Assembly (NCBI GenBank): GCA_937991945.1
Contig: CALKLO010000087.1
Location: 1-64,000 of the forward strand
Direction: 5' to 3'
DNA length: 64,000 bases
Source: an uncultured Granulosicoccus sp.
Lineage (GTDB): Bacteria > Pseudomonadota > Gammaproteobacteria > Granulosicoccales > Granulosicoccaceae
In this document: positions 57,476 to 60,621 of the stretch, one piece after another
Numbering within the stretch: the first letter of the stretch is position 1
How the letters are laid out: the number at the start of each line of letters is the position of its first letter
Made by a program: the position numbers and the translations under genes
The notes under the pieces: generated by a model
What the model saw: only the letters and a program-made list of their open reading frames with translations
Databases searched by the model: none
Told to the model about the DNA's origin: nothing

Positions 57476-59311
57476 GTGATCCAGAAACTCCGCAACATAG
57501 CCATCATAGCCCATGTCGATCATGGCAAGACTACGCTGGTAGATAAGCTCCTTCAGCAGTCCGGTACATTGGACATGCGTAAAGAACAGACTGAGCGTCT
57601 GATGGATTCCAACGCGATCGAGAAAGAACGCGGAATCACAATCCTTTCAAAGAACACAGCCATTAACTGGGGCGACTACCACATCAATATCGTCGACACC
57701 CCGGGTCACGCCGACTTCGGTGGCGAGGTTGAGCGTGTTTTGAGTATGGTCGATTCAGTACTTCTACTTGTTGATGCTGCTGAAGGGCCAATGCCGCAAA
57801 CGCGCTTTGTTACTCAAAAAGCGTTTGCCATGGGTTTCCGACCAATCGTCGTTATCAACAAAATTGACCGCGAAGGTGCACGTCCTGATTGGGCGTTAGA
57901 TCAAACCTTTGAGCTATTTGACAACTTAGGTGCAACTGATGAGCAGCTAGATTTTCCTGTTGTCTACGCATCAGCAGTAAACGGCTACGCCGGTTTAGAG
58001 CCTGATGTCACTGAAGGCGACATGACTCCACTATTCGAAACCATCATTAAAGAAGTACCGGTTCCTGATGTGGATCGTGATGGCCCTCTTCAAATGCGTA
58101 TCAGCTCCCTTGACTACAACAGCTATGTTGGCGTTATCGGAATTGCCCGTATTCAACGTGGTCAACTTCGCCCTAACCAGCAAGTTCGAGTGGTCGGTTC
58201 AGATGCAAAAGAGCGCAACGCAAAAGTACTTCAAGTACTTGGCTTTCACGGCCTAGAGCGCATCGAAACAGATTTGGCTCAAGCCGGCGATATCGTTTGT
58301 ATTACAGGTATCGACAAGCTGAACATCTCTGACACCTTGTGTGACCCATCAATGGTTGAGGCAATGACGCCATTATCGGTCGATGAGCCAACGATCAGCA
58401 TGATGTTCCAACCAAACAGTTCTCCGTTTGCTGGAAAAGAAGGTAAATACGTCACCAGCCGAAACATCTGGGATCGTCTGCAAACTGAATTACTGCATAA
58501 CGTAGCCTTACGCGTTGAACGTACTGAGCAAAGCGAGACCTTTAAGGTGTCGGGTCGTGGCGAGTTGCACTTGTCTGTATTGATCGAAAACATGCGCCGT
58601 GAAGGTTATGAGATTGGCGTAGGTCGACCTATTGTTATCACGCGAACTGGCGAAGATGGCTCAATTGAAGAGCCGTATGAGCAAATCACTATCGATGTTG
58701 AAGAGCAACATCAAGGTGCCATCATGGAAAAGATGGGTGAGCGTCGTGCAGATCTAAAAGATATGGTTCCCGATGGCAAAGGTCGCGTTCGTCTTGATTA
58801 CATCGCGCCTGCTCGCGGCATGATCGGCTTTCGTACTGAATTTCTAACAGCGACTTCTGGCACCGGTTTGATCTACTCTGTATTTGATCACTACGGTCCA
58901 CAGTTAAAGTTGAACGTTGGCGCACGTCGCAACGGTGTACTGATCTCTAACGGTCAAGGTAAGGCTCTAGGATTTGCTTTGTGGAATCTTCAAGAACGTG
59001 GCCGCTTAATTCTCGGTGCTAACTCACAAGTGTATGAAGGCCAGGTTATCGGTATTCACTCTCGCGAGAACGATCTGACGGTTAACTGCCTTAAAGGTAA
59101 GCAGCTGACTAACGTTCGTGCCTCAGGTACTGATGAAAACATCGTTCTGACGCCGCATGTAAACATGAGTCTTGAGCAAGCGTTGGAATTCATCGACGAC
59201 GATGAACTGGTTGAAGTAACACCAGAATCCATCCGCGTTCGAAAGAAGCACCTCACAGAAAACGAACGCAAGCGCAACTCCCGCCTACCAAAATCCAGCC
59301 AACCCAGCTAA
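57476..59311 (+). CDS. typA: Translational GTPase TypA/BipA
   Basis: Ribosome-binding GTPase of the EF-G group, needed for assembly of large subunits at low temperature and under stress. G motifs are intact: [10 protein letters not shown] (12-21), DTPGHADF and [10 protein letters not shown]; the C-terminal domain shows [20 protein letters not shown] and [10 protein letters not shown]. Length 611 aa is normal. The GTG start has AGGA 8 nt upstream. Codon choice looks slightly more biased than in its neighbours, in line with higher expression. Confidence 0.97.
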
Positions 59312-59369
59312 TCCAATCCGGGTCGGACCATCATAACCCATTGTTTTAGCTGGTAATAAAGCTATTTTT

Positions 59370-59401
59370 ACCGGATTAATTGATACTAATCCGGTGTTTT
59401 T
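59370..59401 (+). terminator. Intrinsic terminator of typA
   Basis: ACCGGATTA (59370-59378) and TAATCCGGT (59387-59395) form a perfect 9-bp stem with an 8-nt loop, followed by GTTTTT (59396-59401). It lies about 58 nt after the typA stop and has the right form for a Rho-independent terminator. Confidence 0.75.
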
Positions 59402-59433
59402 GATAGCAAAAAAGACGGTTTAATGCACCAATA

Positions 59434-59489
59434 GGGTCGGACCATGAAGATTAGCCAAGGCTAAACTTCATGGTCCGACCCTTTTTTTT
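59434..59489 (+). terminator. Very strong second terminator-like hairpin formed by the repeat
   Basis: A perfect 16-bp stem (59434-59449 with 59466-59481) encloses a smaller TTAGCC/GGCTAA stem and is followed directly by eight T (59482-59489). In the plus direction it is an excellent intrinsic terminator backing up the one at 59370. The zapE stop codon (59488-59490) overlaps its T-run. Confidence 0.8.
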
Positions 59490-60621
59490 AGCCTTGGCTA
59501 AGTTTGGTGGTCCGACCCGCGGATAGGTAGGCGGTGGTTTGCATCTCGAAGAGTCGGCTTGCTGCGCGCTCAAATTCGAAAGCGAGTCGCTGTCCCGTGT
59601 ATAGCTGGTCAGCAGGTGCCTCAGCCGATACAACGAGCTTGACGTGGCGATCATAAAACTCATCAATTAAATTGACGAAACGACGAGCCGCATCGCTCGA
59701 CATCGCATCCATAACTGGAATATCGCTAATCAGCACGGTAGTGAAGACACTGGCAATTTCTATGTAATCCTCCGTCGATCGAGGGGTATTACACAAGGCA
59801 TCAAAAGAAAACCAGATTAGATCCCCGGAGCGACCCAACACCGGTATTTGCCGACCATTGAGTTCTATGCACTCTCGTGTATCGACAGTGTCCTGGCTTA
59901 ATCGCTCGAAATGCGCCTGCATTGCCGCTTGTACAGAGGGTTCGGCCTGCCCTTCCACGAACTCACCCACCGTATAGATGGGCTCTGTCTGTAGCAGACG
60001 AAGCCGATAATCAGTGACACCCAGCATCTCAACCACTTTCGTATGCTTAATAATTTGCGCAATAGCCGGAAGAAATCTGGCTCGCTGCAAACCGTCTTTA
60101 TACAAACCAGCCGGCGGCACATTAGACGTGGTTACAAGCGTCACACCTCTTTCGAACAATGCGCTAAGCAACCCACCCAACAGCATTGCATCGGTAATGT
60201 CGTTAACGTGAATTTCATCGAGCAACAGAAGCCGAGCTCGCTTTGACCAATCCGTGGCAATAACGTCTATCGGGTTTTCCACCCCCTCCAGTTTGCGCAA
60301 GTCAGTGTGAATTTGCTGCATGAAACGATGAAAATGCAACCGAGTTTTATCCTCGAAGGGGAGCTCTTCAAAAAACAAATCGCAAAGGTGTGTTTTACCA
60401 CGCCCTACACCACCCCATAAATACAAACCTTGAACACCTTCAACAGACACTTCCTGTCGTCGCATCCAACGCGCAAATACCGATTGAGAAGGCTGTTTCC
60501 AAGAGCTGCGCTTTTTAAGCTCACCACCAATGAAGTCAAGCTTGCGCATAATGTCGCGCTGCTCTTCATCCGGAGAAAGCAAACCTTGGGCAACTTCAGA
60601 ATCGTAGCGTTGCAAAGACAC
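59488..60621 (-). CDS. zapE: Cell division ATPase ZapE (AFG1-like)
   Basis: AAA-type ATPase that affects Z-ring stability, mainly under low oxygen or heat. Walker A LWGGVGRGKTHL is at about residues 68-79 and Walker B LLLLDEIHVND near 130, followed by TTSNVPPAGLYKDGLQRARF. Length 377 aa matches the family (E. coli 375). The start is a GTG. The last nine residues (GRTTKLSQG) and the stop codon lie within the REPIN-like repeat, so the native C-terminus has probably been altered by that element. Confidence 0.94.
   Translation of the reverse strand: MSLQRYDSEVAQGLLSPDEEQRDIMRKLDFIGGELKKRSSWKQPSQSVFARWMRRQEVSVEGVQGLYLWGGVGRGKTHLCDLFFEELPFEDKTRLHFHRFMQQIHTDLRKLEGVENPIDVIATDWSKRARLLLLDEIHVNDITDAMLLGGLLSALFERGVTLVTTSNVPPAGLYKDGLQRARFLPAIAQIIKHTKVVEMLGVTDYRLRLLQTEPIYTVGEFVEGQAEPSVQAAMQAHFERLSQDTVDTRECIELNGRQIPVLGRSGDLIWFSFDALCNTPRSTEDYIEIASVFTTVLISDIPVMDAMSSDAARRFVNLIDEFYDRHVKLVVSAEAPADQLYTGQRLAFEFERAASRLFEMQTTAYLSAGRTTKLSQG

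Follow-up and report, generated by a model that had tools for sequence, protein, structure and literature searches.

In the elements described as TIRtrons or TIRYTs, a RAYT-like Y1 gene lies between terminal inverted repeats, some of which also form dispersed families and dimers, and the motif GGGGWSAS is common, although not universal, among these repeats (PMC3733652). REPINs are inverted doublets that are non-autonomous and associated with a RAYT (PMC3116915), and the TnpA-REP subclasses 2.1 and 2.3 comprise HuH-Y1 proteins that, in the study concerned, had no REP-like hairpins nearby (PMC6006769). A different kind of repeat-associated site is known from work on DNA gyrase in Escherichia coli, whose target sites share a 130-bp motif with arms in which the G+C content changes every 10.75 bp and are enriched for BIME-2 elements (PMC6379681). 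The accessible portions of the three articles on TIRtrons, TnpA-REP proteins and REPINs (PMC3733652, PMC6006769, PMC3116915) make no mention of helically phased ends, nor does the non-subscription literature that we surveyed by title and start of abstract; the literature matches to our motif strings that were looked at were unrelated by title.

The element described here is, by its anatomy, TIRtron-like with MITE-like derivatives, and its small palindrome resembles a REPIN. As in TIRtrons, so far as the available text on them goes, a Y1 gene is enclosed by terminal inverted repeats, here of the form (G)GGGTCGGRCC instead of GGGGWSAS, which also occur as a dispersed family and as dimers (PMC3733652). 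The REPIN-like part is confined to a 48-bp palindrome, in which two inverted cores form a hairpin. The high copy number of REPINs is not matched in the genome under study, which has 21 copies of the motif and two palindromes of 48 bp, and, judged by eye, the elements differ from REPINs, as far as these are covered in the accessible text, in lacking a GTAG-type tag at the palindrome boundary (PMC3116915). The associated RAYT, at 241 aa, compares with a median of 325 aa for subclass 2.3 and, unlike subclass 2.1, has no DnaA-type domain in Pfam, as these subclasses are characterized in the portion of the article available (PMC6006769). The ends alternate between A/T-rich and G/C-rich blocks with a period of 10.65 bp, close to the 10.75 bp of the gyrase motif, BIME-2 and the strong gyrase site of phage Mu, and gyrase targets include intergenic REP-type elements, as is the case here; however, the gyrase motif, as presented in the accessible text, is degenerate and consists of two arms within 130 bp around a central cleavage segment, whereas the phasing observed here continues without interruption from a fixed core (PMC6379681).

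Results

The window, a 64-kb stretch of DNA, contains the convergent genes typA, encoding a TypA/BipA GTPase (57476-59311, plus strand; TIGR01394, 913 bits), and zapE, encoding an AFG1-type ATPase (59488-60621, minus strand; NF040713, 408 bits; Pfam match to residue 367 of 377). The initial annotation had described a REPIN-like repeat at the zapE end. A further copy of its motif, GGGTCGGACC, which that annotation did not include, sits at 59320, 9 nt past the typA stop codon; the zapE-side copy of the inverted pair lies at 59509-59518, within the end of zapE, so that inverted GGGTCGGACC bounds the entire gap between the two genes. The typA-side copy belongs to a complete family end, made up of core and phased array (59320-59425, plus strand), whose leave-one-out correlation with the G+C profile of the family is 0.46. 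This end comprises GGGTCGGACC at 59320-59329, CTAA at 59386-59389, a T-tract at 59397-59401, an A-tract at 59408-59413 and TTTAA at 59419-59423. In place of an array, the zapE side has the near-perfect, REPIN-like 48-bp palindrome (59434-59481), in which two GGGTCGGACC cores stand head to head in 22-bp arms with one mismatch and a loop of 4 nt, and a half copy of this palindrome adjoining zapE (59488-59518, minus strand), which carries no phased array (phasing correlation -0.13). Inverted pairs connect 59434-59465 with 59487-59518 (32 nt, 88% complementary) and 59430-59456 with 59459-59485 (27 nt, 93% complementary), and the fold of 59425-59525 reaches a z-score of -9.1, with equal stability in none of 200 shuffles. 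Rfam returned no match over 59200-59700, and an RNA family of that database was therefore rejected as an account of the locus. Among the relatives, the genome designated G001 has an element terminus on the typA side that is tandemly duplicated with a unit of 31 bp; in another, G013, the sequence at a contig end turns back on itself where the zapE-adjoining palindrome lies, likely an assembly artefact due to the hairpin.

Read in the typA direction, the palindrome forms a 17-pair stem with five more pairs (-40.8 kcal/mol) that leads into eight T at 59482-59489 (plus strand), where the initial annotation had given a stem of 16 bp and eight T; the first T closes the stem, and the last two overlap the zapE stop codon on the other strand. 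The anatomy of an intrinsic terminator, a GC-rich stem and then a T-run, is present at 59434-59489 and also at 59369-59396 (plus strand; -19.5 kcal/mol including flanks), where a second hairpin, likewise absent from the initial annotation, lies closest to typA within the spacer of the typA-side end. The 2-kb stretch around this hairpin contains five terminator-like sites, compared with 2.4 in shuffles. The suggested use of the palindrome and its T8 as a typA terminator, predicted from the fold, is plausible, but the hairpin and T-run at 59369-59396 precede it, and the palindrome would probably serve as a second terminator behind a hairpin that arose within the spacer. A role in termination only was rejected for the elements as a group because the genes that flank them, judged by the strands of their open reading frames, are convergent, co-directional or divergent.

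As had been noted previously, the half copy supplies the last nine codons of zapE (59491-59517) and its stop codon (59488-59490); the terminus reads ...AYLSA-GRTTKLSQG*. By contrast, the idea that the repeat was taken into function at this position did not withstand comparison. Among 49 genomes having a zapE match, 30 loci were read, and their tails past the conserved Y-L (W-L in G003 and G017, Y-I in G035) vary and are short, with similarity only within close pairs, for example G007/G019 (GSQRRL) and G011/G018 (ATE); no conservation of the tail is seen in relatives that lack the repeat. In G013, the same repeat is translated in another frame (KGSDHES*), in G001 the stop codon falls 6 nt short of it, and the captured tail is common only to G015, the closest relative compared (SAGRTKKLSQ, as far as readable). 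Given this poor conservation, the simplest reading is that the repeat-derived tail is tolerated and incidental, and a conserved function of the tail was rejected. We infer that zapE lost its own stop codon and now reads nine codons into the repeat, probably with neutral effect. An element adjoining zapE, complete or partial, occurs at four of the 30 loci (the genome under study, G015, G001 and G013), with an end 460 nt beyond zapE in G017, and is missing in several RAYT-bearing relatives, which indicates that elements are gained or lost.

Across the genome, GGGTCGGACC has 21 exact copies, compared with four for the reversed control, and is therefore not unique to this locus. Nineteen of these copies fall in nine loci, and the other two, on contigs C23 and C53, lack the rest of the motif. 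Within the window, the four matches found at one mismatch are equalled by 11 of 100 shuffles, so that the status of the repeat rests on the genome-wide count and on structure; a search at three mismatches was dominated by chance (99 matches, 140 in the control). The RAYT gene that the initial annotation had recommended looking for is present in one of the nine loci, at C31:8727-9449, enclosed by inverted copies at C31:8591 and 9698, 1.1 kb apart. It encodes a 241-aa REP-type Y1 transposase that scores above the cut-off for PF01797 and reaches 70 bits against the NCBIfam model REP_Tyr_transpos, below the cut-off of 80. Its residues H60, H62 and Y120, invariant in all 14 aligned relatives, are the expected catalytic residues (HuH plus Tyr), with roles assigned from the family. 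Elements with both ends span 234-1108 bp, and those of 234-324 bp share, in MITE-like fashion, the end module of the 1108-bp element that contains the RAYT; the ends at C31:49k and C31:114k have no exact partner nearby. The second 48-bp palindrome lies at C69:20078-20125, and the matching locus in G015 also has one. Inspection by eye of the 25-nt flanks of seven elements revealed no target site duplication in six, while the C69 palindrome is flanked on each side by CAATTG, which is self-complementary and could therefore be either a duplication or a continuation of the palindrome. Two further observations concern related sequences in this genome. A second Y1 gene (C67:18297-18632) encodes a DnaA-type C-terminal domain (PF08299, 34.2 bits; cut-off 31.5), with no inverted flanks longer than 9 nt within 600 nt. 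In addition, a variant core, GGTCGGACCCCGGTAGGTGGTTG, is found at C42:35566-35588, with similar copies in G001 and G015, possibly marking a second subfamily.

The complete ends constitute a gap-free module of about 106 bp. Following the GGGTCGGACC core, TAA occupies positions 15-17 and TTGAT positions 22-26, and then A/T-rich and G/C-rich blocks alternate, the former near 26, 37, 48, 59, 69 (CTTAA), 80 (TTTT), 91 (AAAA) and 102 (TTTAA). When spacings of 64-79 nt between core and TTAA were allowed, exactly 70 nt were found in 41 of the 45 matches listed from six relatives. We used a near set of 96 ends, namely those of 126 distinct sites in the loci covered that pass a filter for TG[AT] at positions 23-25, which is uninformative on later positions; the set includes related sequences, and its statistics ignore kinship, while G011 and G018 contribute only the ends among the matches listed and are under-sampled. 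The G+C content of this set, taken as 3-nt means, has minima at 16, 26, 37, 48, 59, 69, 80, 91 and 102, corresponding to a period of 10.65 bp over positions 11-106 that none of 1000 column permutations matched in strength. When each end was compared with the remainder, 94 of 96 correlated positively and 91 exceeded the 95% level of the null distribution. The 30 sites that fail the filter have a mean correlation of 0.07 (20 positive), several of them looking like real ends with one base change. Outside the module, phasing is weak at 107-130 (the signal was reached by 5 of 1000 permutations) and absent at -39 to 0 (151 of 1000). It is secure that the ends are helically phased DNA. Hairpin-like long inverted repeats, seen by eye in the spacers of RAYT-near ends (G013:C76:12799-12912, G001:C321:15727-15840, G017:C14:304576-304689 and G009:C167:9950-10063), are perhaps terminators of the RAYT genes.

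In distant lineages, the RAYT gene is flanked on each side by the same array. A search of species genomes with the RAYT alignment yielded 314 stretches that encode a relative, of which the best 80 were used; 69 of these have titles naming neither Granulosicoccus nor Granulosicoccaceae, six of which say only Gammaproteobacteria. Their titles include Desulfobacterota groups, Thioalkalivibrio, Planctomycetota, Nitrospirae and Aminicenantes, and they are mostly metagenome-assembled genomes. At least 250 nt flank the gene on either side in 56 of the 69, and in 46 of these 56 the motif occurs within 320 nt both before and after it, the arrangement of a Y1 gene between terminal inverted repeats that is also seen in the genome under study and that characterizes TIRtrons in the available description (PMC3733652). 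The motif lies 106-135 nt before the matched open reading frame in 49 of 55 cases; on the far side, in 57 of 60, the distance is 94-116 nt. Over positions 28-106, the period is 10.65 bp for the 5' ends (upstream, n=54) and 10.50 bp for the 3' ends (downstream, n=57), in each case with none of 300 permutations as strong. The minima lie within about one base of those in the near set, and the profiles of the two sets correlate at 0.906.

Comparison with relatives shows which features of the elements persist. We compared the loci of the genome under study with twelve stretches of G015, each representing a single motif place or a pair; all nine of the former have a motif-bearing counterpart, six by both flanks and three by one, while three of the 12 G015 loci have none in return. 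In 12 orthologous pairs of ends, aligned without gaps, spacer identity is 0.46, compared with 0.37 in 132 non-orthologous pairings, and the anchors are 88% and 79% identical, respectively; the flanking DNA aligns over more than 700 nt with 65-81% identity. The spacer letters are nearly saturated between orthologues, with spacer length fixed in the pairs compared. The comparison was extended to the motif-bearing stretches of seven further genomes, six of which (G001, G003, G006, G013, G017 and G023) share the flanks of the RAYT; in G009, the gene sits elsewhere, with different flanks. In at least one of these six, both sides matched for the RAYT, E1, E8, S1, S2 and typA loci, E2 matched only in split pieces and E9 on one side; the C69 palindrome locus had no match in their motif-bearing stretches. 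In G013, inverted ends about 4 kb apart (C180:30603 and 34653) have outer flanks that match the two sides of E2, as if genes had been interposed between these ends.

Elements and RAYT also occur together. With one mismatch allowed, at least five composite ends are present in 13 of the 18 genomes whose RAYT has at least 50% identity and in none of 39 others (Fisher, 3.5e-9), a co-occurrence that is not phylogenetically independent since 17 of the 18 RAYT-bearing genomes belong to one genus; at least one composite end is found in 15 of the 18 and in 4 of the 39, and the reversed control never exceeds three per genome. G007, G019 and G026 have RAYT relatives and no composite ends, G010 has one end, and G022 has three, equal to its control count. 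The relatives in G019, G007 and G026, at 52-53% identity, show a TAG before the end of the query (its position in the first two taken from the frames read) and no adjoining motif. G036, from the same class and another family, has 13 RAYT matches, many fragmentary, and six composite ends with none in the control, and is a possible horizontal, multi-copy case.

The period of the ends, at 10.65 bp in the near set and 10.65 and 10.50 bp in the distant ones, corresponds to the phased arms of strong gyrase sites, with their spacing of about 10.75 bp. A four-letter matrix built from positions 28-106 of the 96 ends placed its best match among 73,278 placements on phage Mu at a centre of 17930, next to the position annotated as cut by gyrase, 17879/17880. 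Column-permuted matrices ranked the Mu site first in 0 of 60 cases and, for a combined set of 207 ends, in 2 of 200. Across 18 variants of the matrix, the rank of the Mu site ranged from 1 to 16, with the distant set alone placing it 4th to 16th; a separate group of half-length variants placed it 3rd to 7th. A scan of pSC101, with an assumed position for the par locus, which the record does not annotate, provided no support for gyrase. The phasing of the ends spans some nine turns and lacks the separate central segment seen in the gyrase motif; nor was a cleavage core found in them. Since the Mu rank varies with the form of the matrix and pSC101 is unsupportive, wrapping of the ends by gyrase would be a lead and not a result, one that we consider more doubtful than probable; intrinsic curvature for another protein would give the same pattern.

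Discussion

Taken as a whole, the locus is probably best described as a RAYT-linked element of the TIRtron type with phased, bent or wrapped 106-bp ends and an incidental zapE tail. The repeat on the zapE side would be one side of such an inverted element, whose RAYT may recognise the GGGTCGGACC core, while the array may act as bent or wrapped double-stranded DNA. Phase and length are kept while the letters drift, which suggests that selection acts on DNA bending or wrapping. The likeliest wrapping protein would be DNA gyrase, as for BIME-2 of E. coli and phage Mu, with a transposase complex including bending proteins as the main alternative. It is conceivable, if tentative, that each 106-bp end of this Y1 family, which extends across phyla, comes with DNA already suited to wrapping by gyrase. 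On that view, the ends in Granulosicoccus would have turned into fixed sites of chromosomal topology that retain their position and geometry, though not their spacer sequence, and are maintained with a resident RAYT; they would be independent equivalents of the BIMEs that bind gyrase in E. coli.

An equally tentative possibility is that the phased ends are transpososome sites like those of an insertion sequence, with the end bent for synapsis or cleavage by the RAYT itself or together with HU or IHF, and with gyrase playing no special part. The close fit of the distant ends around the RAYT gene, as in an autonomous element, and the two-ended elements, which resemble MITEs around a single insertion sequence, are in line with this notion; however, the loci of the genome under study recur in place in G015 and do not look freshly copied, and the two ends on C31 without an exact near partner are also at odds with it. 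It is rather unlikely that the locus represents a mobile REPIN domesticated as the coding end of zapE and as terminator of typA, and nothing more. The palindrome with its T8 would fit this account, and REPs that supply stop codons to open reading frames have been reported in the accessible text on TIRtrons (PMC3733652), but the zapE tail is poorly conserved, a hairpin and T-run sit upstream of the palindrome, and the account does not explain the phased 106-bp end at 59320-59425. What holds of the mobile palindromic element initially proposed is that it is multi-copy, inverted, linked to a RAYT and includes a REPIN-like palindrome; as a full description, the term REPIN undersells the ends and was rejected, as complete copies are longer and phased. 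That the spaced pattern reflects mere shared ancestry of recent copies with unselected geometry is very improbable: the flanked genes belong to one RAYT family, but the spacers have diverged to the low identities given above, yet core, TTAA and TTTAA stay in ungapped register in the 12 pairs, and the same phase is retained in distant lineages.

Returning to the RAYT-linked element with phased ends, the short repeat at zapE is a remnant of a larger element, which serves as a warning that short palindromes spotted first may be remnants of this kind. The proposed link with gyrase becomes directly testable. More generally, the findings bear on the question of why bacteria keep RAYTs and their repeats: in the RAYT family described here, the repeat ends have a measurable physical design, with a fixed length and a helical phasing that persist while their letters drift.
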